Of a DNA stretch of 64,000 nucleotides, positions 4,559 to 60,300 are shown one piece after another. The translations under genes were made by a program, and so were the position numbers. The stretch's first letter is position 1, and every line of letters starts with the position of its first letter. The notes beneath the pieces are model-generated. The model ran no database searches, was not told the origin of the DNA, and was given only the letters and a program-made list of their open reading frames with translations. This DNA is from Antedon mediterranea (lineage: Eukaryota > Echinodermata > Crinoidea > Comatulida > Antedonidae): contig NC_092673.1 of assembly GCF_964355755.1 (NCBI RefSeq), forward strand, positions 3,911,001-3,975,000. Direction: 5' to 3'.

Positions 4559-7500
4559 TTTTACAAGATTCTCATTCAGGGTTGATTCCTGCTAAATTTG
4601 GCTTCCTACTTCTTGTGCACACATGTCCTGAGTGTATTGTAAGTATCTGTGGATTTAAGCCTTGTCTACACCATTAAACTTTATGTAACAAAAAAAAAAT
4701 GCGCCTATATATGGATATGATGATCACTACCATATTTAGATATATCACTACCATATTTGGGCACATCAGACTTTTTTTGTCGAACTAATTTGATAGTGTA
4801 GATACTGTGGAGCTTTAGAAAACATGTTTCTCAAGTTGATTGACTCAGCAGCAGTAAGGCAGGGGAGCTGCAAACAGTCGCTATACAATCAGCAGAGGTT
4901 CAAAGCTGTTCTTCAACATGGTTCTGGTTGTAGAACAAGTCTTTTGAGAACTGAATCTTCTTTTCAATCATATATCCCACGTGTTACCAGAATTTGGAAT
5001 AACTTACCCAGTGAAATCTGCAACTTAAATATTTCTGTTAGTTCTTTTAAAACCAAATTACTTAATTATCTCAATATTTATTTTTTAAATAATTTTGATA
5101 TTGAAAATGTGTGTAGTTGGTCGCTTTCTTGTCGATGCTTTTATTGTAGAACGTAATTTTTTTTTTTTTCTGTTCTGGGGTGACCAACTAGCATAGGTGT
5201 TTAGCACCTGTTTGATCTTTCCGTGCCTCCTTTTATAATTGTTTTTGTCTTCATTGTTTATGTATATGGCAGAAATTGAATAAATAAAAATAAATAAAGA
5301 CAAAAAGCTGGAGATCCAGTGTACAAATTTTGATTTCTTCTTATAGATATCTATATTATCTCATTCTCAATTATTATTTTTTATTTTATTTGACTAAAAT
5401 ACTAAAGAAAAGTTTACAAGAAACAAGAAGAAATACATTAACAATACAAATAAAAATTTAACAAAAATATACATCTAAATCCCTCCTTTGAGTAGACCTA
5501 AAGTAGACGCTTTACTGTGAAGGGACACTTATATTAAGGAGCCCTATGAATTATTTATTCATTTTAATACCATTATGATTTATTTACAAACATCCTGACC
5601 TCTGTCTACAGTACAGTCGACCTTCTCATTTACATACTTCTCAATTACGAACCTTCTATTTTAGGAATGCCGTTCCAACGATGACGTCATCAGTAATATA
5701 ATAAAACTTTTACATATCTACGAATTTATTATCTTCTTAATTTATTAAACTATCCCAAAACAATTATTTCATAACTAAAGCAAAGCTTATTAAAAACGAT
5801 CCACGATTTATTTCTAGTTTAAAAGTTGCCTAGGCCGTTTAGCTAAGCCTAGGCCGTTTCATTTTCATTCAAAACTTCTCATTTACGAACTTTTTCATTT
5901 ACGAACGCCTTTCAGACCAAGGGGTACATAAATGAGAAGGTCGACTGTATACTTTAAATCATCTCTCTACCATTGACCACTTGGCTCTATTATCTTCTTG
6001 TATTCGCTAGGGACAGCCACTTTGATTTAATTCCAACAATTATTTTAATCAACGTTACAATAACGTTATCAATCAAATTAATGAATTATCTTTAGAATAA
6101 TTTAGAAGTCCACTTCAGATTCTACACTCAACGGAGGAATCGGAAGTTGTTCATTACCGTTTAATGTGTTTGGTTTATTCGTACATAACGTCATTGACAC
6201 GTTATTTCAGTTTAAAGTAAACATTTAGAGACTATGTTGCGGAGAAGAAGCTGGCTCAGATAATTGCCATTAGTTGCGATCCAATGGTTGTGTTACGTAG
6301 TTAAATACTTAAATGCTTAGTTAGACATATCAATTACAATAACCAATTTGTAAATTGAAATATTTTGTTGTTTATATGCACTCATTGGTAAGTTTGAAAA
6401 TATACACATGATTGGTGAAGTGAAATTAACAACTTGTAATACGATTGTGGGTTGGTGATAAAAAGTAGGATATTTTTAATCCAATTTTGAATCAAAGGCA
6501 CCAACAAATAAAAATACAGTTAGATCTTTAGATGCATGCAACCTGGTGGGCTTCTTCTGAGTTTTTACCCCAGCTCTCTAGATAAAACTTCGCTTATGCT
6601 TCTAAAGGAAACTGAAAAAAAAGTAAAAAGACCACCAAAAGACTGAAAGAAAATTGAATAATCCAAATAAAAACAGATTTAAGAAGAAAAAATGTAGACT
6701 TTAACACAATAAAAAAACATAAAAAATATGGAAACATGGAAAGTGTAATGTCGGAATGACGGAAAACGTTTCAAGACAAGAGAGAGAGTTTTGCTTCTGA
6801 TGCTATTCCAGAAGGAATCTCCAGGTTACAAAGAATCAATTCTTTAAGAATCCATTTGTTAACTTTAAGCAAGCTATTGTAGATGCAAGCGTCTTTAATT
6901 ATTAGTTATACTATAGACATTTCCAGAGTCACAAAATCTTACAGTTTGCTAACAAAGAATTAGTCAAACCTATTGAACAGAATATCTAAAAATTGACTTA
7001 TTATTAATGTTATCATCCTGGTATGTTGAATTCTTACATTTCCGCATTCATTTGTTTCTCTCAACAAGATAAAACTTCTTCTCACCTGTTCTCATAATCT
7101 CAATGTCATCCAGGTAAAATGCATCAATTTAATTATATAACAACCTTAATAGGCTAAATGTATCTGAGTAAGAAAGGTGTTTGTAATAGTCATTTTCTAA
7201 TGTGTATGTGTGTGTGTGTAAATGGACTATCCTTGGCCTTCCCCTTAAGCGCTGTCTAGACTATCAAACTTTGTGACAAGAAAATGTGATGTGCCCATAT
7301 ATGGACATGATGATGTCATATCACTACCATATTTGGGTATATCACTACCATATTTGAGAACATCACACTTTTTTTGTCAAACTAGTTTGATAGTGTAAAC
7401 AGAGCCTTATTTATCTCCACAAGTTAAAGAATCTCTCCAGTGGGATACTATTATTAAACACTATACAGGTGTGTTGCTAGATAGTGGGTTTAGTAGAGTA

Positions 7501-10500
7501 GGTTTTGCATTGGTTCTTAAACTACTCAAAATATGCTAAATGAACTGTGGTTAAAATTTACAATATTAAAATCTCAAAATATTCTAATAGTTTTTGTTTA
7601 GGGACGTACAGGTATAATAAAGCTTGGTTCCTACCTCATATTAACGCAATAAGCCCACCATTAAGTAATTTGACCAATCATGAGTGGTCATCCCAACTGT
7701 CGACTGAATAGTCGACTCACTTGCGTTGCGCCACCGTTGTAGGACCAAATCTTTAGTGACAGTACTACTACAGATTACAGTAGGATTTGTATAGAAATAT
7801 TCATGTAACTTTTATTAGATGGTAAGATAATTATATGCTGTATTCTAGAATTCATCGGTTTTCTCATTAGCAACAAACTTCCGCTGTAATTTGTTTGTTC
7901 ATGGTCGTCTTATTAATTACATGCTAGTTCAAAAAGACAATTTTTTTTTCAAAATTTATCTCATTGTTTCGTTGTTAAAGACCTACAATTAAAACGATCT
8001 TGAATCAATTGTTTGTCTTAAAAGCCTTTTAGCGAAGATCACGCTGACGCGCTATTTATCAAGTGTCCGTGTGTCCACCTACTTGATGCAGTCATTTAAC
8101 GCTTTTAGGTGTTCTTTGTCTTCAAGTCAAGTGTTTTTTAATTGATGATGCAAGGTTTCCATGGACTTTCTTACGGAAGGTGATACTGTGGAGGTGGCAT
8201 TTTATGAAAATAGAGAAAGCGTTTATCACTGACAGAGACGGTGTTAGGGCGAACATCCTATTTGGGTTCTATATGAAATTTTGAAAGTCTTATTTTAATT
8301 TACAATATTAAAGATGTATTGTCCCCTAAAAACATGAAAAATGAAGATTAATAAAATCAGGCTTTAATACTGTAGGCCAATTGCAGTTTTAAGGTAGTTA
8401 TTCACTTCTGAAATAAAAAAATCATTTTAAGACAAAAAAAAACCTCATTTTCTGACAACAAATTTTTGCTTTAAATTACTTATTTTTTAGGTAAACAAAT
8501 TTTTTTTTTCGATCCAGTTTTTGGTCAAAGTGAATAACTATTATGTAATATTAAAATGAAATATTCAACAAAATTATTTTTTAGGGAGACAATATATTTT
8601 TAAATGCTTTACATGGACCACATGATGGCATGGAAATGTAATTTCACATTATTTGCTGTTGGAACAATGGGTTTGTTGAAACATGTTGGAAAGAGGGTGT
8701 TGGAAAGCAAGGACCGGAGATGGAACTTAAATTGTGTCAATTACAACCTTCCCTCATAGTTATTGGTCTATATTGTTAATATTAACTTAAATATTGGGGA
8801 AGGGAGGGTAAACGAAAGAGTATATTTTTACGTAAAAGGTAAAGTTTTCCTGCTAGGAAATACTTAGTACAACACAGAAGTAGGCCTCACTGTTTGGTGG
8901 CGTGTGTAGGCCTCGACCCCATGCCTCAAGTAATATCCTGTATAAGCACCTGATGATCACACAGCTTGTGTCTAATGATGTAACTTTGTGCTATCATACA
9001 AACTGCATTGAACACATGCAATAGACTGAAATTCCAATTTACACACTTGCAAATATTAAGATGATTTCCTTTCTTTTCAATTATAAATTGTTTTTCTGTG
9101 TGTCTGCCACGCCTACTACTCGGAGACTGCCACCTTATTAAAAAGTATGACGTTATTTGGTATGCTCTTTAAACTAATATAGATTATTGATTAATGATGA
9201 CAATGCATTGCAAATGGCCTGCAGTCTCTGTTTTTCAATGCACAACACAACTCCATACTAATCTCTTTACTTCTACTGTAGCTCTTATTGTGGATTGAAA
9301 TTTATAATCCTTTATGAAATAGACGTACTGTACTAAGATTTTATGAAAAAACAGAAGTGAATGAACATTGGGTAATTGTCGGTTCTATAGCTCTACTACT
9401 TTGACTAACAAAGTGTGGTGTTCCCAAATATGGTAGTGATGTTCCCAAATATGGTAGTGATATGCCCAAATATGGTAGTGATATGCCCAAATATGGTAGT
9501 GATATGTCCAAATATGGTAGTGATATGCCAAAATATGGTAGTGATATGCCAAAATATGGTAGTGATATGCCCAAATATGGTAGTGATATGCCCAAATATG
9601 GTAGTGATATGCCAAAATATGGTAGTGATATGCCAAAATATGGTAGTGATATGCCCAAATATGGTAGTGATATGCCCAAATATGGTAGTGATATGCCAAA
9701 ATATGGTAGTGATATGCCAAAATATGGTAGTGATATGCCAAAATATGGTAGTGAGATGCCAAAATATGGTAGTGAGATGACATCATGTCCATATGGGCAC
9801 ATCACATTTTGTTGTCACATAAAGTTTGATAGTGTAGACAGAGCTTAAAGAAGCCCTCTTCATTTCACATTTTACTTCAAAAAGTAGGACTTGACAGTGA
9901 CTAAATCTCCCTGTTAAAAACCAACAGTAAAACTTGCTGGGTCATTATTTAAAGTTCATCAATACCTATTTTCAAATAGATTTTGTCGCAACAGTGAACC
10001 GTTTTTGTTCCAATATTTTGTTAGTATTTTCCCATTTAAAAGGACAATTGTTATTATTACTTCCTATCAAGGGTTCTAAATTTCTCAAGTTAAAGAATAA
10101 AAGAAATGTAATCATGTATGATATACACCATATGTTTGTGTTTTTATAAATAAAATTGGCATCACTGATCCCATTATTTAGGAAAAACAAAAATTTCAGT
10201 TCAGTCTGGAGATATATTTCAATTATTTCCATTTGAACAGAAAGCAAACTGTTATTTTCACGCTGCGACTTTAGGCAGTTATATTCCCAGAGGAGAGAAT
10301 CATTAGGAAACTGTATTAACATGAAAGGTATGTTACTACGGTTGACAGTTTTGGGAATTTGTAAACTTGACTAATTTACAGGTCCATGCTGCTCAACCCA
10401 AAGCATTTCTTGAAAAAGAGAGTCCCATTGATTGGTTGATACAAATCATTTATAACAATTTTATGGCAAATTTGAGGGCAGTAAACACTCTGGTTCCCAT

Positions 10501-13500: not shown

Positions 13501-16500
13501 GTAAGTGATTATATTCAAATGTAGGTCATATTGAAATCTGACTGAAAACCAAAAAAAAAATTATACCCAGGTGCATCGTTGATAGGATTAAATTACGTCC
13601 CAGTGGGAAAACATTTGTTTTTCAACAAAGTAGTCTCGTAATTTTATGTTGAGAAGTTCTCCGAAAAAGAATGGCTGTCACAAAAAGAAATAACGATTGT
13701 TTTCGTAAATTCTAACTCATTAACATTTCTGAAATCAGATAATATTAAATCATGTATGATATGACGCAAAGCTTAATTGCTTGGCTGTACTATAGTAAAA
13801 GTTAAATCATGAAATTTAATGTATTTGTTGAAAGCAAAAAAAGAAAGATAAATCAAAATCATGTTGGCTTTGATGAAGCAGAAAGCAGGTTTTGAAAGAT
13901 TTGTTGCAAAGTCATTTAATCTAGACTGGCACATTTCAAACTTGATGCGACATACATACAGGCACACAATTAAATAGACAATATACAACAATATATGCAG
14001 TCATCTTAATTATAGATGGTTGAATATTAAATAAGGATTTCATTTACCGTATATCCTCTGGTATAAATCCCAACTACATAGAACACAAAATTGGGCAAAC
14101 TTTGTGGGGGTGGGGCTATACACAGGGAAACTTACTGGCTAATGAGAGGCCTACATCCACACCAAAATTCAATATTGGAACTACTGTATACCTGGGGATA
14201 TGCCTGAAATCAGACATAAAGTAGAGGGTGGGATTAAACCAGAAGTGGAATTATACCCAAGGATATTTTTAACATTCAAAATTGATTAAATTGTGTTTAA
14301 AATTATTCAAAATTTTATAATATTACAGTAAAAACAGAGGATGCACTATTGTAAAATACATAGATGTATGAGGTTTGATGTCTACGTATGTCTAAGTATG
14401 CAATTTATATTTGAAATATGATTTTATGACTCCCTCATGGAACTGGAAGTCAATATGCAATACTCCCTGAAATAGCTTATGTTCCATACTCAAAATTGAA
14501 AAGCTTAAATTGATTAAAATGCGACCACTTGACAACGAGACTCATTATTGGAATCCTTTACTTAGATGAATACTTTAGAATTGAAATCGTGATTTCTAAA
14601 TTCTAAGATTTTTCTGCGTATTGCATGGACCACGACACTTCAATTACTATTTTGAATCCTTTTATCGTTTTGTCTTTGCCTATTAGATTTATATCGAGAT
14701 ATCTCTCCATGTTTTGTCTGAAAGCTTGGATTATTCTGATCATGTGAAATGAAGAAAAGAGATTATTCTTATAGTTCATTAAAATTTCGATCAGTGACTT
14801 GCAAATAAAATAATGTTGAAAAACATATTTTATCATAATTCTGACCATAATTTAGTAATTAGACCTGCAGTTTTTAATATGCAGTAACCAAAATAATTTT
14901 AGTATTATTCCAATAAATTCAAGTCATTTTCATGTTAGTTTTTTATAGTCTATGTATTTTGTTTGGAAAGGAAGTTTTTCTTGCAATTCTTGCATTTTTA
15001 TTTCAGGATCTGTCAGTTTTTTTAGTATTTTACGATATTTTACCGTTTTAAACCTATCAAGCATTTTAACAAACCTTGTCAAAAGTTCTGCCTACACTAT
15101 CAAACTAGTTTGACAAAAAAGTGTGATGTGCACAAATATGGTAGTGATACTCCCAAACATGGTAGTGATGTGACATCATCAAGGCGCATATGGGCATGTT
15201 TTTGTCACATAAAGTTTTCTAGTGTAGACAGAGCTTAAGGATATTCCATCCCTCCCTATTAGATATGGTTCACCGATCTTGTCATAATACATTACTTTAT
15301 TTGACAAAATATTTACAAAGATATATGTTCAGTCAGCTACATACATCAGCAGCGATGGGTGAAAAGACTAAGCGCAGGATACAAACGCACTTGACTTGAT
15401 GTAATTATAAGCCGCCATTTGTAGTTAGAGTACATGCTGAAACTAGTCCCAGCGGACAAAATGCCGAACACATTACTGGCGCTCTGTAGAATTATTCCAA
15501 TTACATTGGTATGAATGTAAAACGAAGATGAGAAATTGGTTTAGAATCATGCGGTATCGAGCCTAATTAAAAACGGGTAATAGAAAAGCAGGATATTGAA
15601 AAAATAAACTTAGAAATGGACTTAAAATTTGCTGTGAATTAAAACTGTACGGTTGGTTGACATTTATATACATATTTTATCAGCAGATGAACAGACATAT
15701 TTTATAAAAATTCAAACAAGCATTGGGCCTTAGTCTATAATATTGTCATTTGATATTAAAAAAATCATGAATATTGTTTTTCCCGTGGATATATTGTACA
15801 GACTTTTTATACAATATAATGATTAATATAATATACATCTCGAGGGTTAGAAAATTAATAAATTAAATGCACTCATGGACTACAGATGTAATGTAAAAGA
15901 TAAATCCAGTATTATTGATGCTTTAGGTTTATAATCATGTAAATGTTTTAATCCGAATGATTGGAAATCTGAGACATGCATTTTTAAGCAAATGAATCTT
16001 GACTACTGTATTTGTGTTTTAACTATTTGTTTATTTTTCTTTTTAATTCAGGAATTAAATGAAAAAATGGACTCCATTACCAATGGATATGACAACATTC
16101 ATGTATTGCCGAAGGAACGGTCGTTTGTTGCGTCGTGGGGATCGTACGACATCGTTAGAGCTGAGTTAGAGGTAAATACATTTTTCAGATACAATGAAAT
16201 AATAAATAAATGTTACTGTATATTCTTATCTACAGGCATCCGTCGGAAAGTTGTTGGTCTCGTGTACATAGTGCACATTCAAGAACTTGGTACACTATTC
16301 GTAAAGAGTAGGGTATCATCTTCCGATGTGCTGATCTGGTAGGTGCTGCAATGTTGGCTGCTGTGTGTCTGAGGAGGCCCTAATCTGAATTTTTACTCGG
16401 CTTCTAGTTAAGCTTGAGGACTAATATAAATACCAAAAAAAAAATAATAATAATAATATACTAGCATCAGAGCACTTTCTGTTTGTAAAACATGCATTTT

Positions 16501-19500: not shown

Positions 19501-22500
19501 CATAATAATAAAAAAAATAAAATAAAGACTCTCTAATCAGGGAACACCCTTTTTAAAGAGGATGCTTTAATAGTAATTATGCTTTTTTCCAGATTACGGC
19601 TATGGCAGTCTTTAAAAAAACTTTCATTTGTTGAAAACCAATTTTTTTTATTATTGAATATCTATGAAAAATTGCTTAAAACTATATTCAAGCAATCTTT
19701 AAAATGTATTTAAGTTTGATGTGCAATCTTTCAAATATTCCATCAAAATTGTGCCGAACGAAGAAGTAAATAGAGCAGCGATTTATTTATAGAAGTTACC
19801 ATTTAGCAAATTTGAAACAGAAGCAAAACTTAATTGAATCTCAGACTATATGTCATGTTGAATATTTCATTTCTAATGTATTGTGTATTACAGATTGCTT
19901 TTCAAGATGTGGTCAGTTTCAATCTAGATATATGTATATATTTCTGTAGCATACACATCTTGAATTTTTCAAACGTCTAACATTTCAAAAGTTAACTTTG
20001 TGTTGGGTTATCATGAATACCAGCGATGTTTTCTTAATCTATCGATTGAATTATTGATGTTGAAGAAACCAATCTAAACACCATCTTTTAAACTCTGTCT
20101 ACACAATCAAACTACTTTGACAAAAAAAGTGTGATGTACCTAAATATGGTAGTGATATGCTTAAATATGGTAGTGATATGACGTCATCGTATCCATATAT
20201 GAGCACATCACATCACATAAAGTTTGATAGTGTAGACAGAGCTTTAATGGTTTTGTACTGAAAAGGTCATTCAGTATAATGAAGAAATAAATTAAAATTC
20301 TAAAGCCCTGTTTACACTATCAAACTAGTTTGACAAAAAAAGTGATATGCCCAAATATGGTAGTGATATGACATCATCATAATTTGTTGTCGCCTAAAGC
20401 TAGACAGAGCTTTAGGTGTATGATAGACAAAATTGAAATGTTTGTCATACGGTTTACCTTCTTTCTTTAATGTTCATTTTATTACCTGTGTTCATTTATA
20501 CCTTTGTTCATTTTATTACCTGTGTTCATTTATACCTTTGTTCATTTTATTACCTGTGTTCATTTATACCTTTGTTCATTTTATTACCTGTGTTCATTTA
20601 TACCTTTGTTCATTTTATTACCTGTGTTCATTTATACCTTTGTTCATTTTATTACCTGTGTTCATTTATACCTTTGTTCATTTTATTACCTGTGTTCATT
20701 TATACCTTTGTTCATTTTATTACCTGTGTTCATTTATACCTTTGTTCATTTTATTACCTGTGTTCATTTATACCTTTGTTCATTTTATTACCTGTGTTCA
20801 TTTATGCCTTTGTTCATTTTATTACCTGTGTTCATTTATGCCTTTGTTCATTTTATTACCTGTGTTCATTTATACCTGTGTTCATTTATGCCTTTGTTCA
20901 TTTTATTACCTGTGTTCATTTATGCCTTTGTTCATTTTATTACCTGTGTTCATTTATACCTGTGTTCATTTATGCCTTTGTTCATTTTATTACCTGTGTT
21001 CATTTATACCTGTGTTCATTTATACCTTTGTTCATTTTATTACCTGTGTTCATTTATACCTTTGTTCATTTTATTACCTGTGTTCATTTATACCTGTGTT
21101 CATTTATGCCTTTGTTCATTTTATTACCTGTGTTCAATTTTAAAAGAAAAACAATCTGAAAACCATCTTAAAAGCACAAACTGAATAATTTATGAATTAT
21201 TAATATTTGATGACTTTTCACAATGTGTTTAATGTCTCTAGACTGAATTTCTTATCAAGTGCCATATGTTATTAATATTGCAGGTTTTAATTTTATGCGA
21301 ATCAATGGAAACTGGAACGATCGTTCACAGAAGACCACTGATACGTCAGTGTGGTATGGATGTGGCGCGCACGTTTACAACATCTCATCTCGGAGTGGCA
21401 AAGCTCCGTGGAGTGACATGCATAGCACTTCACAATGGGCTGTTTTCAGCAGGTAAAATTAATATGAAGGTTTAAACCAAATTTTCATACTATTATGGAT
21501 TTATGCAAATATATTTATTTACATAGTGGAGCTGTAGCTTGGTGGTTAACATGCTTGCTATCCAATCCCAAGGTTCAATCCTTACCTAGTGCCAGAGTTG
21601 TAACTCACGACTCTTTCAACTCCACACCCTTCAGTAAGCCTGAAATAAGATATATAGTTATATATATATATATATAGTTTATAAGCATGATACAATAGTT
21701 TATCCATCCTGTAATTGGCGAGTTTCTTGAGGTTGGATGCATACGGAAAAATAATAATATTTGGATATGAAAATTGACAGGGCTTTACTTGTTTTATATC
21801 ACATGCCCATAGAGTCCAAGACCAACTATTTTACTGTCATTAAAATTACAGAATGTATTACATAGTGTGGACAGATGAATGTTCTTAGTGGAAGTTGTAT
21901 GGCACAAATTATCTTTAGGGAAGAAGAAAATTGTATGTGTGGTCCATAATTCAGCCCAATAGGCTGCGAGTCACATCAGGCCTTGTCTTTTAAGGCGAGT
22001 GAGTGCGATCACTCACCTAACACACTCCTAAACTGCCCTTGAGGAGTGCGATTTACAACACGCCTTAATTTGGTAAACTTCTACACATAAAAATACAAAC
22101 AGCACACCTACAGCACCCCTGAATGTATTGAGGAGTGCAATTTGTAGCACACCTATGATTTTCAAAAGAGAAGGCCTGCACATGTTATCCTCAACATTTA
22201 ACCCCACATTTACACATATTAACAGTCGTCTGAGATGACTGAAGTTTATACAACAATACATGCTTCTGTTTACCCAATTTTTTAGGGCATGTAAAATATA
22301 TGCCAAACTTGCCCGACTTAACTTAAAGGAAAAAACCCAATTTGTTTTGCTAGCTGATTTGGTACAAAATAGGTTTACTTGCCCAGAGTGACTAGTCAAT
22401 ACTCGATTGTATTGCTTTTTATATGGATAGAAACATACTCCATCAAATATGTTACTCAAGCATCTGACTTTGATGAGGTTTTCATCCTCTTCACAATATC

Positions 22501-50507: not shown

Positions 50508-53500
50508 ATGGCCAAGTTTCACGATCTAAATATTCCTTTTACAACAGATAAAAAACAGCTACAGAAGCTAATTGGAAGTGCTGCGAACGGTTTGTTTATT
50601 TGAATAAAATTAAATAATATGCTATGAATAATTAACTAAAGAAAACATTGTTGTAATGATTTAATGATTTATAGAATCAAGTAGAGGCCTAGGCTACTAC
50701 GTAGCTCTACTTTTAGGGAGGCTAGCGAATCCATCCAAGGGAAGCCGGCGGTACTCCCGGCTTGTGCAGGCCTAGGCTAGGTAGGCCTTACTGGTCAACA
50801 TGTATGTTTAACCATGGAGGTAAAAATTACCTCCACCATGGTTAAACCATCTTCATTATTCTATACTTTTAGCTCAAATCCAAAAATAAATGTTGTCTCT
50901 TTTTTTATTTATATTTTATATTAATTAATATTTAATAATAATATTTAATATTTGTCTTTTTGTTCATTTTATATTATAATAGTAAAATTTAATCAATGCC
51001 TTAGAATTTTCAAATGCCAATACAACCCATCCAATCCAGAAAATCTATAAAATTTAATATAATATTTTATTATTAGGCTTATTATATATAAAATAATATT
51101 ATAATTATTAATAAATATTTTTGCAGTTGGTTATGAAGTAGTAGCTGTCAATCATGTTGTGAGAGATAAGAAAGGGGTGAGTTTAAATACTCTGATTCAG
51201 AATTGAAATTCCAGCATTGTTCTGATTGACTAAATTTTTAATCAATATTTTGTTCTTTATTTCTGCATAAAAACATTGTAAAGTTTTACTGTTATATGTA
51301 CGACATAAAATAAACAAAAACAAATATGATATTAATAATTGATTAATTTTTTGCAGTTAAAGAATGCTCCTGGACCAGTAGAACTACAGAATATTGACAT
51401 TGCAAACTTGAAGGTTGGTTATGAACTAGTTTCATTTTTTAATTCAAAGTTCAAATTGAATGCGTTGTACCTATCTCTTTTTAACATGTTTCAATTCCAC
51501 ATGTCATTTTTCTAAACTTTAAAACAACTGTCATATCAACTATTTGCAGGTTAAAGGTAGAAGTCTTCAACAGCTGTCAAGAGTTACGCTTATTTTAAAG
51601 GACAACACAACGTTTGCAAGGATGGTAATATTTGGTCTCTTAAACATGTACTAACTTTTGTAGCTTGTGGCGACTAGGACCCAGTGAAATAATAACAGTT
51701 GCCAACGCACTTATTCCTTGGTCAATATCAATGTTTCAGCTTAACTGTTATTGTCTCTACTGATAAAGTTCGGAAAATGAACTTAGCAAATTCCACTTCT
51801 AACTGTAAATTCTTTGGATATTTACCTTTTTTCTTTCTTCTACGTTGACACCTTTTTTGATTTTTATTCCTTTCTCTAAGCATTGTTAAACCATACATGG
51901 TAAAAAGCACCTTATAAATATTATACAGTCAACTCTCCCAATAGCGGACACCTATTGGCTGGCCCGATACTGTATGTCTGGAAAGTCTGGTATTTAGAAT
52001 GTGTTTTTAATGGTAAAAACACATTTGGGACCTTTTGAACCTTTCTTATAAAAAGTCTGTTTTTTGGGAGAGTTTGCCGTTTTAAGAGAGTCCGGTATTG
52101 GGAGAGTTGACTGTAATAATAATTATTATCATAAAAGATTATTATTACTTTTCTTATTATGATATTAATACTATACAGGATACCTTTCTTTAGTCAACAG
52201 ACAATGCCATTCAATCATATGATTTGCTCGCTGTTCAACCAACAACAGACAAACTGTTCTTGTTGGCATGTACCCAATTGGAAGTAGATATTATATCACT
52301 GGACTTCACACAGCGGCTTCCATTTTTTATGAAATACCATCCTGTCAGAGCTGTAAGTTCTTAACAGTCTTAATGAATGTACTGGACTACCCTTCAAACT
52401 ATAATGTAGCAATCTTTGCCAAATTTGAAATACAATTTCAATGTACAGTACAACCTACATTTTACGTATAGTACAGAACCAAAAGAATAAGGTAAGAAAT
52501 GAGATTTCTAAAATCCAAGTTGACCTTAAATTGACCCCCAAATATGTAGATTGTAGCTAAAAAGGCGGCCATGTTTGCCTACTTTACTTACAGCATGCAG
52601 CTGTCAAGAGCTAGCCCTAGACTACTAAAATTTATGCCAAGCTAGTCCTCGCATCTAGGTAGGCCTAGCATACTAGAAAAGCATATGCAGTCTTTGTGGT
52701 TTGTTGTTAAATTTTGCCCTCAATGTAAGAAAATAGTACACTACTGTATGTATTAAAATGACTAAAAACGATGACGTCATCGGTCAATTTATGCGTACGT
52801 ACAATCCAGGGATGGTAAAATCAGGGTATTGTAGTGTAGAACTATGAAATGTTTTGGTTTTGGTACAGTTGAAGGGTTGAGATTTCATTGGTACTTAAAC
52901 TATGTTTTTATTATTAGTTTTTCCACATAAATACATCACACATAAGTGATGATAAGAATGGTCTTATTTTTCTCTAGGCTCAGGATAGAGGTGTACATTT
53001 TGAGATCATCTATACACCAGCCATCAACAACACCACTGCACGGCGAAACATTATCGGCAATGCACATGCATTAGTGGCAGTTAACAACGGAAAGAATGTT
53101 ATCATTTCAAGCCAAGCTGAAAGAGTCAGTGATTTATTTTTACTATTATTATATTATTATTATTTACATTTATTTCCACTTTATTATGTGAAATAAATAT
53201 ACAGCTTTGTATACAGTATTGAGTTTTGGTCTGTAAAGCTCTGTCTTCACTATCAAACTAGTTTGACAAAAAAAGTATGGTTTGCCCAAATGTGGTAGTG
53301 ATATGCTCAAATATGGTAGTGATATGACATCATCATGTCCATAAATGGGTACATTTTTTTTTCACATAAAGTTTGATAGTGTAGACAGAGCTTAAAACTG
53401 GTAGTAATCCATAACATGCTTTCATAGATGGATGAATCTAGTGCAGGAAACATAATAGGTGTATTTTAACCTTTATTGTTACCCAGAGTATATTTTCCTG

Positions 53501-55030
53501 TCAAACTACTACCATGTGCCTATTATAATAGTAGCTTAGAAATAAATACTATTATAATTTGTTTAATCTTATTGTTACATTTTCTGCTGTAGGTAATGGA
53601 GATACGATCACCATATGATGTTGCCAACCTGTATCCTTTTTGTGCTGTAAATAGCTGCTGTATATAGCTGCTGTCTATAGCTGCTGTCTATAGCTGCTGT
53701 ATATAGCTGCTCTCTATAGCTGCTGTCTATAGCTGCTGTATATAGCTGCTCTCTATAGCTGCTGTCTAAAGCTGCTGTATATAGATGCTGTATATAGCTG
53801 CTGTCTATAGCTGCTGTATATAGCTGCTGTATATAGCTGCTGTATATAGCTGCTCTCTATAGCTGCTGTATATAGCTGCTGTATATAGCTGCTGTATATA
53901 GATGCTGTATATAGCTGCTGTATATAGCTGCTGTCTATAGCTGCTGTATATAGCTGCTGTATATAGATGCTGTATATAGCTGCTGTATATAGATGCTGTA
54001 TATAGCTGCTGTCTATAGCTGCTGTCTATAGCTGCTGTCTATAGCTGCTGTATATAGCTGCTGTATATATCTGCTGTATATAGCTGCTGTATATAGCTGA
54101 TGTATATATCTGTTGTATATAGCTGTTGTATATAGCTGCTGCATATATCTGCTGTATATAGCTGCTGTATATGGCTGCTGTATATAGCTACTGTATATGG
54201 CTGCTGTCTATAGCTGCTGTATATAGCTGCTGTCTATAGCTGCTGTCTATAGCTGCTGTATATATCTGCTGTATATTGCTGATGTATATAGCTGATGTAT
54301 ATAGCTGCTGCATATAGCTGCTGCATATAGCTGCTGTATATATAGCTGCTGTATATAGTTGCAGTATATAGCTGCTGTCTATAGCTGCTGTATATAGCTG
54401 CTGTATATAGTTGCTGTCTAAAGCTGCTGTATATATAGCTGCTGTATATATTTATATTTTCCTTCATGTGATATTCAGCGGCCTGTTGTTTGGTTTGAGT
54501 GAAAGCCAATGTAAAAATGCATTATCAAGGAACTGTAGGGCTTTACTTATGCATGCCAGTGAGTATTTTTACCTTCATTTATTTTACTACTAATTTTAGA
54601 TATATTTTGAAGTTATTGTTATTAATTTAAAGCCTAAATAACATATCTAAATGAAATGATATATAAAATGTATACTAAATGTTCTTCTGAATGTCTTATG
54701 TCCAAAAAACATATTTCATATTGAAAAGAAAAATTGGGTAGCTCTTAAGCCTGCCTCACTACACTACAATTTATCAAAACTATTTTTGTTATTGTTTTAT
54801 TCTATTCAGTTTGATAAATAATACAATTCAAAGATTTTACTCATTTATTTTATTTAGTTTCTAGAAAATCTGTTCGATCAACATTGTCAGTTAGAAGAAT
54901 TGAAGAACTAGCACCTAAAGAATGCTGGAAAGTAGAGGCCAACGACCCAGAGAATATTGTAAAACAAACGAAGACATCAGAAGAAGATGACGGCGACGTG
55001 GGAAGACCAAAAAAGAAGAGGAAAAGATGA
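50508..55030 (+). CDS. RPP30: RNase P/MRP protein subunit p30 (RPP30), complete, 9 exons
   Basis: RPP30 is a TIM-barrel-like protein of nuclear RNase P and RNase MRP, which process the 5' ends of pre-tRNA and pre-rRNA. Exons: 50508-50589, 51127-51176, 51357-51413, 51550-51624, 52194-52352, 52978-53124, 53593-53630, 54479-54558, 54858-55030. They total 861 bases (286 aa plus stop); human RPP30 is about 268 aa. Recognisable family segments: MAKFHDLNIP at the start, GYEVVAVNH, LSRVTLILKD, LLACTQLEVDIISLDFTQR, FEIIYTPAI, NVIISSQAER, then PYDVANLGLLFGLSES (nearly identical to the human segment) and NCRALLMHA. The tail PKKKRKR at the very C-terminus looks like a nuclear localisation signal. The start is the first ATG after a short leader. 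It lies downstream of, and in tandem with, the xylosyltransferase-like gene. Confidence 0.95.
50806..50848. repeat. Hairpin-forming inverted repeat in RPP30 intron 1
   Basis: GTTTAACCATGGAGGTAA and TTACCTCCACCATGGTTAAA are almost perfect complements around a three-base spacer. Confidence 0.75.
51926..52113. mobile_element. Tigger/pogo-like MITE in RPP30 intron 4, TSD TA
   Basis: CAGTCAACTCTCCCAATAG at the left and TATTGGGAGAGTTGACTG at the right, flanked by TA. This is the same TIR type as 5614-5947. Confidence 0.8.
53237..53392. mobile_element. MITE family 1 in RPP30 intron 6, TSD TAA
   Basis: AGCTCTGTCTTCACTATCAA ... GATAGTGTAGACAGAGCT flanked by TAA on both sides; two core units. Confidence 0.85.
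53631..54478 (+). other. RPP30: U12-type (minor spliceosome) intron in RPP30
   Basis: The 5' splice site reads GTATCCTTTTT, a perfect match to the U12-type GT-AG donor consensus (GTATCCTTT). The 3' end has TTTTCCTTCAT at 54457-54467, close to the U12 branch-site consensus TTTTCCTTAAC, with the presumed branch A 12 bases before the AG. The other RPP30 introns have ordinary U2-like donors. The intron splits the Leu codon in VANL|GLLFG (phase 2). Nearly all of its 848 bases are a 13-bp minisatellite. Confidence 0.85.
53645..54450. repeat. 13-bp minisatellite (AGCTGCTGTATAT) filling a U12-type intron
   Basis: Roughly 60 units of 13 bases with GTCTAT/GTATAT/CTCTAT variants and occasional 15-base units. 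It leaves only about 14 bases at the 5' end and 28 at the 3' end of the intron, the parts that carry the splice signals. Confidence 0.95.
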
Positions 55031-55429: not shown

Positions 55430-56085
55430 TCCAGTGAACAACACTGCAATTGGCACACTAATAGCAGAGAACAGCCGAGACAAATAACACCCAGAAAACA
55501 ACCCCATGACAACTGTAACACCCCAGGGCAACCACCAAGACAACAAACCCCAGGGAACCACAAAAAAAACAACCCCCATAACAACTGTAACACTCATACA
55601 ACAACCACCCTAGGGCAACCACCTAGACAACAACCCCCATGTCAACTGTAACACCCATACAACTCCCCCTAGGACAACTGTACCACCTAGACAACTACCC
55701 CCAGGACAACTGTACCACCTAGATAACCACCCCCTAGGACAACTGTACCACCTAGACAACTACCCCCAGGAGAACTAACACCCAGACAACTGTACCACCT
55801 AGACAACTAATCCCAGGACAACTGTACCACCTAGACAACTACCCCCTAGGACAACTGTACCACCTAGACAACTACCCCCAGGAGAACTAACACCCAGAAA
55901 ACTGTACCACCTAGGACAACTGTACCACCTAGACAACTACCCCCAGGAGAACTAACACCCAGACAACTGTACCACCTAGACAACTGTACCACCTAGACAA
56001 CTACCCCTAGGACAACTGTACCACCTAGACAACTACCCCCAGGACAACTGTACCACCTAGACGAGAACTGTAACATCCAGACAAC
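55430..56085. repeat. About 32-bp C/A-rich minisatellite
   Basis: Irregular units of the type ACAACTGTACCACCTAGA + CAACTACCCCCAGG, more regular in the 3' half. A retroelement-like tail (GCGCTCTATAAATCTTATC) follows at 56092-56140. Confidence 0.85.
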
Positions 56086-57363: not shown

Positions 57364-60300
57364 TTAACCTGGACTAGCTTCCTTTATCGTTGCTTGTACT
57401 GCAACATGGTCTGAGCTAGCCTTGCGATTCCATTGCTCATCGTTTAACAGAGAAATGTCTTTTATTTCAAGATGTTTTGGTAAACGAACAAATATATAAT
57501 CAATCTGTAAAAAAAGTTTTGGTATTAATTATATACGTAGCAAGCATTATAACTTTTTTTGATAGATGAGTGGAGTTATGGCTTGGTGGTTATGATGCTT
57601 GGCTACAAATCCAAGGGTCCTGTCATGTCAGGATTTTTTTAAATGACAAATTACAACTCCACTCCCAAAGACTTGTAATAAGACTTTGTTTATGTAGAGC
57701 ATCTTGTGTGTTTGTCTTCTGAACCAGATTGCCACCTCTAGGAAGGATAGTGAATGAATTTGCTTATGGTTATCTTTGGCAATTTGCCTAAATAAATAAA
57801 AAGAACAAAATGTACTTACACGTTTCCTAAGATGTTTATCAAGTCTGTTAAATGTAAGACCATCATCCCTTTTCTCATTTCCTTGGTATACACCAGGGGT
57901 ATCAGGCCTAAAGAAAAAATATGCAAGTTCAAATAATGTTCAAAATGTTACCTTGCCCATGCACAGTTATGATTTGATCGAACTGCTCCCACAATTTCTT
58001 GTGATAGTACTGTGGTAATTAATTCTATTGTGTTTTAAAAAGCCTTGGGTGTGATATGCCAATGATGTTGTGATCGTGTGGTAAAATGGTAGCTCAAATG
58101 TACAATATTTTTATGGCCTAAAGCTCTGTCTACACTATCGAACTTTATGTGGCAAAAAAGTGTGATGTGCTCATATATGGAGGTGGTATGCCCAAATATG
58201 GTAGTGATATGACATCATCATGTCCATTATGGGCACATCACATTTTTTTTGTCACATAAAGTTTGATAGTGTGGACAAAGCTTAATAATGGTTAACAAAT
58301 TACCTTGGTTCCTTGTAGAACACTCTCCATGCGTCTTTCAATTCACTTGTCCACACACCATTAATATCAGTTTTACCAGATAAAAACCTGAAAGACATTT
58401 GATTGATTGTATTCATTTGGTTCACATCAAATCCTCAAGTATAACAAACAAATGATAATATCTTAACAAGTACTACAATATCCATATGGCTAGGGCCTAT
58501 TTAAAGGGTTCTGTCTGTATGTATGGCTCTAACTTGAATTGCACTATGTAATTACTTTAATGCTTACTGTATAGGCTTGCTGTGTGGTTCATCATTGAAA
58601 TCTCCTAATAGGATAGCAGGTCCTTTAACTGCACTAATATAATTCCAGATTTCCAAGACAGATCTCAGCCTAGCAGATGCACTGAGTGAAAGGTGGGTCA
58701 CAAACACATGAACCTAAACATTATAAAAGGGTGTAAGAAAATAGATATCGATCATCCATATTAAAAGGTTAAACATTTTTCAACACGAAAGAGAAAGAAG
58801 GAACAGATTATGTATTAACAATTGCCAAGTGTATAATGTAAAAATGCTGTATTGTAAATAAACGTGGGGCACAAGAGGTAAGGGGAAAATGTTTTTGAAT
58901 TTTATGGCATCAATTATCATAGTAGACTGTTCTAAAACTTTGTGTCAAAAAGACTTTTAAGCAGACACAGGATTTTGAATGTTTAACTATTTAAGTAAGA
59001 TCATGGATAAACTAGAATCATACAGGAGGAATTACATTTTTTCTTAGTGGAGTTAAGAGTTGCGAGTTACAACCCTGGCACTAGGTAAGGATTGAACCCC
59101 AGACCTTGGGATTAGAAAGCAAGCATGTTAACCACCAAGCTACAGCTCTACATTAACTTACAGCACCAATATCAGGAATAATAATCTCAGCTCGGAGACA
59201 GATTCTTTGATGGACAGAATCATCGGCATCTGAAAAATTCCTTAAAAAAAGGAAACTTTATGTGAAAAAAAAATTTGATGTGCCCATATATGGACAAGAT
59301 GTCATACCACTACCATTTAAGCATCACTACCATACCATCACTACACAAATTTCAACCCAGCCTAATTGCGCCACCCTAGCTACATCTTTGAATTAATAAT
59401 AAAAAATTAAATACAAAGTTTGGGAATGGATTTTATACATCTCGGTAAATTGAGGTAACTATTATTGACATATTTAGTACCTTGATAATAGGATATAGTC
59501 ATGTGCTACAATAGGATGTTTGGAAAATATCGCTAAACCTTCTTCAACTCTTACTAGATCCTGTGAGAAATAGGAAACGGCGGGTTGGTACACAAACTGT
59601 AGTAAAATAAAGTGAATTTTAAAATTACTGTAAGATTACTGTAAATTTGATTTTTTGGTTTTTGTCACCAACTATAACATTAATGACCACAACCTCTATC
59701 CCATACTTTGGGATACATCAATTCAGGGAACATCCCTATTAAGGGTTATTCACATCTGTTCCAGCGCCGGCAAATCAAATTGAATGCAAATGTTTCGTTT
59801 TCACAATGCTCCATGAGGCCATGCGCCAAACGATATGCGAGTAGCCGCGTGAAAACAACACCTTGACGTTCAATTTTATTTGGACCGAAAATGTGACAAA
59901 CTAAAAAAGGTAATATAATAAAGTGCAATGAAATATAGTCTTGTCGAAATGATGGTGATGATTGTAACACCTGATATGTAAATTCCATTTACTTACCTGG
60001 TAGCCAGGTAAATAGTTAGCAAGGTGTTGCACCTGAGCGGGTCCAAGTTCCTTCCCATTTAATTGGTCAAATCGAACTTCCTGAAACCCTATAATATCAC
60101 TTTGACTGCCTGCAACCAACTGTACAGTAATATAAGTAATATATTTATATAATAATAGTTTTAATATATAACTGTATAGCATTATAACATACTGTATTTA
60201 AAAAGAAATTGGAACATTTTTATTTAATTTAATAATTTCAGTTGTCCTTGTTCTTACTACAATAGAACCCCTTATTTAGGATATTCTTAATATGGGCCAC

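Follow-up and report, generated by a model that had tools for sequence, protein, structure and literature searches.

How much sequence of its own does an intron of the minor class need, if nearly all of its interior can be given over to a tandem repeat? This question is raised by intron 7 of the RPP30 gene of the crinoid Antedon mediterranea, which an earlier note had described as a U12-type intron made almost wholly of a 13-bp minisatellite. Here, we analysed the 64-kb stretch of DNA that contains this gene (the window), together with the 354-Mb genome assembly (G000). The gene and the elements of its seventh intron are arranged as follows.

50508..55030, + strand: RPP30 coding region, from start to stop codon, with nine exons and eight introns (p30 similarity; predicted splice model)
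53593..53630, + strand: RPP30 exon 7, ending ...YDVANL (predicted splice model)
53631..54478, + strand: RPP30 intron 7, GT-AG, phase 2, 848 nt, very probably U12-type (sequence and splice model)
53631..53639, + strand: U12-type donor GTATCCTTT (motif match; potential U11 pairing together with the next two T)
53643..54450, + strand: 13-bp minisatellite, 62 units, consensus TGCTGTATATAGC (Tandem Repeats Finder and unit split)
54457..54467, + strand: branch-site motif TTTTCCTTCAT, with the branch A, assigned by motif, at 54466
54477..54478, + strand: acceptor AG, the first AG downstream of the branch A
54479..54558, + strand: RPP30 exon 8, beginning GLLFGLSES... (predicted splice model)

The spliced reading frame matches subunit p30 of human RNase P (6ahr_I, E 1.7e-61), with no gap at the intron 7 junction, as well as yeast RPP1 (6agb_I, E 1.5e-22), and all six matches of the RPP30 protein in the genome assembly lie at this locus (eight candidates scored). 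In the predicted model, the eight introns of the gene span 136-848 nt, with intron 7 being the longest and the sole phase 2 intron; minor introns are biased away from phase 0 (PMC10639083). Joining 53630 to 54479 in this model preserves both the frame and a conserved motif, splitting YDVANL|GLLFGLSES such that the CT of a Leu codon remains in exon 7 and exon 8 opens with C|GGC CTG. No Rfam family reached its gathering score within the 64-kb window, and nothing relevant to RPP30 and minor splicing was present among the matches listed from the open-licence PMC literature.

The coordinates given for the intron in the earlier note proved exact, with GTATCCTTT at 53631-53639 and the AG at 54477-54478. 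The intron starts with GTATCCTTTTTG and ends with TTTATATTTTCCTTCATGTGATATTCAG, and the minisatellite that fills 53643-54450 between them accounts for 808 of the 848 bases (95.3%), against a previous estimate of about 800. As had also been noted, only the intron ends are unique, namely 12 bases on one side (53631-53642) and 28 on the other (54451-54478), holding the donor and the branch motif. It is these merely 40 unique bases that are the unusual part of intron 7.

U12-type donors follow the consensus [A/G]TATCCTTT, and U12-type branch sites the consensus TTCCTTRAY. The intron 7 donor GTATCCTTT agrees with the former in nine of nine letters, upholding its description as a perfect minor-spliceosome consensus, while the branch site TTCCTTCAT agrees with the latter in eight of nine, having a C at the R position. 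In intron 7, the last base of the AG lies 12 nt beyond the branch A, the right distance for a branch-like motif, as had been claimed, and within the published optimum of 11-13 nt for U12-type introns (PMC3584512). Over both strands of the window (128 kb), GTATCCTTT occurs once, at intron 7, with ~0.8 occurrences expected by base composition, and TTTTCCTTNAY likewise occurs once, also at intron 7. Calculated from the base frequencies of the window, the remainder of the 9-mer given a GT donor has p ~1.2e-4 and TTTTCCTTNAY at one of three spacings has p ~2e-5, which by simple arithmetic on these frequencies puts the chance of finding both at ~2e-9 per intron. A pattern search for short U12-type introns returned one match versus seven in a reversed control, and so did not reveal further U12 introns.

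The four minor-spliceosome snRNAs are present in the genome assembly, each scoring above its Rfam cut-off: U12 (one match, 125.7 bits), U11 (two, 88.6 and 82.9 bits), U4atac (one, 97.6 bits) and U6atac (two, 136.6 and 33.7 bits, with a cut-off of 33). The lower-scoring U6atac-like copy (L003 1501-1602; G000:C7:8523554-8523655) is diverged relative to the main gene and is perhaps a pseudogene. The U11 of this genome opens with AAAAAGGG, which could pair with UCCUUUUU of the intron 7 donor (one wobble), and its U12 contains AAGGAAAA, complementary to UUUUCCUU of the branch site. From this arrangement, we infer that the donor would pair with U11 and then with U6atac, that U12 would pair with UUUUCCUU, and that the first AG, 12 nt beyond the branch A, would serve as the acceptor. 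We propose that the minisatellite took over the interior of a minor intron, and that it could spread because such an intron would require little beyond its two ends; the array RNA would then fold mostly on itself, shortening the path between the intron ends.

A basis for such folding can be seen in the sequence, where unit positions 2-13 pair with positions 2-13 of another unit through ten Watson-Crick and two G.U pairs. Because the unit is self-complementary in RNA via these two G.U pairs, the sense transcript is predicted to fold strongly, with a minimum free energy (MFE) of -416 kcal/mol for intron 7, compared with -316 +/- 5.6 for 20 dinucleotide shuffles (z -17.9) and -212 kcal/mol for the antisense strand. 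Per base, without correction for GC content, the intron 7 array has the strongest MFE among the nine arrays of the window that were folded on both strands (-0.513, the next being -0.304). Along the predicted fold, donor and branch site are ~29 steps apart, as opposed to 817 along the linear sequence, and this path remains at 17-34 steps in 25 constructs of 2-62 units (24 of them shortened, some identical) and at 11-36 steps across 23 constructs whose linear distances span 61-1313. Full-length mononucleotide shuffles (n=12) gave paths of 39-85 steps; in further shuffles (n=25), the path was 18 steps in one and at least 34 in the rest.

These predictions would suit an array that has been selected as an RNA clamp, folding away and holding the donor and the branch site together at any copy number, a hypothesis that we formed after the fold had been seen and that we judge very improbable. 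When columns of the array were permuted, the donor (+5 to +10) was as open as observed in 3/80 cases, the branch-site core in 3/80 and both in 0/80 (30-nt flanks, 100 sampled structures each, with borderline ranks being noisy), the last of these being in keeping with a clamp; an equally short path, however, was found in 10/24 and 28/80 column permutations. The observed energy was reached in 4/160 permuted arrays, or 0/80 with flanks. Among 18 circular orderings of identical dinucleotide content, the consensus unit ranks second. Against selection, random placement of the observed unit variants gives arrays that fold at least as well as the real one in 116/120 trials (same original base) and 119/120 trials (any base), indicating that the variants eroded rather than protected the fold, such that selection on it is unsupported and the fold is probably a by-product of the repeat's founding unit.

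The predicted accessibility of the splice signals also bears on this reading. When the intron is folded with 30 nt of exon on either side, the probability of being unpaired is at least 0.92 for donor positions +6 to +10 and at least 0.94 for the branch-site UUUCCUUC, but only 0.41-0.60 for donor positions +1 to +5, 0.12 for the branch A and no more than 0.09 for the AG. In this prediction, 54457 and the branch A are paired in a small hairpin whose loop is the branch-site core; the main partners of the spacer and the AG are the array and the unique bases at the 3' end. Extending the flanks to 100 nt leaves the branch-site loop open (0.99), but most of the donor becomes paired (+1 to +7 except +3 at 0.04-0.14, and +8 at 0.24). 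The predicted openness of the donor is thus dependent on the length of exon folded along with it, which lowers the odds of a clamp. A self-zipping spacer, of which any copy number would fold away since the unit's self-complementarity is confined to the sense RNA, leaving the ends ~30 steps apart and the U12-pairing core in a loop, accordingly stands little chance of being the right description. If it were right, minor-intron splicing would be insensitive to array length, and it is arrays of this sort that minor introns could tolerate. Predicted self-folding provides an inexpensive way to ask whether RNA structure aids introns in bearing long repeats.

An alternative that we regard as highly improbable concerns the class of the intron, which could be U2-type with U12-like ends arising by chance, or a hybrid taken out by the major spliceosome. 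Compared across the eight RPP30 introns, the predicted U12 duplex of intron 7 is the best (-10.1, others -4.5 to -8.4) and its U1 duplex the weakest (-1.3, others -3.1 to -10.4, scored with what we take to be the U1 end sequence), both of which count against removal by the major spliceosome, as does the ~2e-9 chance of the two motifs occurring together. More accommodating to this alternative are the GT-AG ends and the U11 duplex, in which intron 7 comes second (-6.7) and is matched by the RPP30 intron at 52353 (-6.9, the best). Likewise, although U12-type introns are without a distinct polypyrimidine tract (PMC3584512), intron 7 has 10 pyrimidines in the 15 bases before the AG, partly contributed by the branch site, with 8 to 12 in the other RPP30 introns, and its pyrimidine content does not set it apart from these seven. 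Together, the donor, the branch site, their spacing to the acceptor, the best U12 and weakest U1 duplexes and the presence of all four minor snRNAs sustain the earlier U12-type call, and on this sequence evidence intron 7 is very probably a genuine U12-type GT-AG minor-class intron with a minisatellite-filled interior.

Tandem Repeats Finder reports the array with period 13, 61.8 copies and 89% matches, and splitting it into units yields 62, comprising 59 of 13 nt, two of 15 and one of 11. There are 19 unit types, with TGCTGTATATAGC making up 21/62 and TGCTGTCTATAGC 12/62; the main variant, A7C, is carried by 17 of the 59 units of 13 nt. Uniformity is highest in units 11-30, with a mean of 0.5 differences from the consensus versus 1.3 in units 51-60, and no run of at least four units recurs within the array. 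The suggestion that the array is probably length-variable is therefore unsupported in this one assembly. That assembly error created the array or distorted its length is extremely unlikely, since, although assemblies are error-prone at tandem arrays, its 19 unit types follow an irregular order without a repeated run of at least four units and clean in-frame exons flank the intron. The array contains 60 GT and 55 AG dinucleotides; neither GTATCCTTT nor TTCCTTNAY is found inside it, and consequently the minor spliceosome meets no decoy of full strength there.

We also considered whether the array has relatives elsewhere. All five exact occurrences of the double unit (26 bases) in the 354-Mb assembly lie within intron 7, which speaks against a dispersed family at the level of exact copies; diverged copies may exist, the DNA search being one that skips simple repeats. 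A 14-bp array on another contig (G000:C2:26593002-26593551) shows 79% identity to part of the intron 7 array but differs in period and unit; a common origin was ruled out by its 14-bp unit, and the likeness is probably a chance resemblance between AT-rich units.

The earlier note had treated an array in a minor intron as remarkable, a view that fares poorly against the genomic background. At a score of at least 300 and a period of at least 10, the 64-kb window holds nine arrays covering 6.2% of its bases, and twelve 8-kb samples of the assembly hold 12, covering 15.1% of 96 kb and found in 5/12 samples, with more than half of these array bases coming from one 8-kb satellite stretch. Across species, median minor-intron length tracks that of major introns (rho 0.903), with the minor introns of Hermetia illucens having a median of 4,019 bp (PMC10639083). 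Given this correlation and the commonness of arrays in the genome, an array-bearing minor intron is to be expected now and then.

Several other repeats were observed in the course of this survey. Among the samples, L013 1-8000 (G000:C4:15000001-15008000) consists entirely of one 215-bp satellite, and L014 (G000:C5:8000001-8008000) has six arrays with a score of at least 300 and periods of 45-298 bp in 8 kb. Just 3' of RPP30 lies a complex array (55520-56062) with periods of ~32, 65 and 112 bp, with a GC content of 0.51 over 55673-56062 versus 31% for the window. The window also contains a dispersed short element that has 23-bp inverted ends (AGCTCTGTCTACACTATCAAACT), is often flanked by TTA or TAA repeats and carries one to seven copies of a 21-bp repeat in its interior. 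It gave 14 paired-end rows, one nested in another, including the following.

7248-7406, 15084-15235, 20091-20243, 58122-58282 and others: element with 23-bp inverted ends (paired inverted ends)
53237-53392: element with 23-bp inverted ends, inside RPP30 intron 6 (paired inverted ends)

A 21-bp array of 17 copies lies at 9423-9779 and has one element end at 9823; it resembles a runaway copy of this element, a MITE seeding minisatellites.

As a positive control, we turned to prospero, whose genes carry a U12 intron. A homeo-prospero family search of the assembly gave two matches, both on contig C10, and upstream of the domain (reverse complement of L020) we found an AT-AC U12-like intron of 1,419 nt bounded by ATATCCTTTG and AATCCTTAACCAAAGTGTAC, removal of which joins the frame into the prospero domain. 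Like intron 7, it combines a U12 donor (ATATCCTTTG) with an TCCTTAAC branch motif and an in-frame junction, its branch A lying 11-12 nt from the last base; in contrast to intron 7, it has AT-AC ends and harbours inside just a 2.1-copy 17-bp repeat with a Tandem Repeats Finder score of 56. Separately, a 17-bp minisatellite of 17.4 copies (GACACTCCTATTAAGGG) lies downstream of the homeo-prospero exons (L020 31-326).

Among the titles and abstract starts listed from the open-licence PMC literature, no comparable minor intron consisting nearly entirely of tandem repeat was found, and matches for U12-type introns with minisatellites in that literature concerned growth-hormone introns; in the part of PMC3584512 drawn upon here, the tandem repeat treated is that of U12 donors within a splicing enhancer. 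Intron 7 shows a minor intron pared down to unique stretches of 12 and 28 bases at its two ends and, if spliced normally, would delimit what the minor spliceosome requires of an intron. It is a tidy real example of a minor-class intron that is nearly all minisatellite, and not a novel kind of thing. Its tandem units of 13 bp in 61.8 copies fall within the ~10-100 bp that characterise minisatellites, and like intronic minisatellites generally the array is built head-to-tail from imperfect units, 62 in number, differing from them in its location within a minor intron and in a unit whose sense RNA is self-complementary with G.U pairs. With U12-type GT-AG introns, intron 7 shares the donor, the branch motif, the 12-nt spacing, a phase other than 0 and the snRNAs in the genome, and it differs from them in that all but 40 of its 848 bases are tandem repeat.
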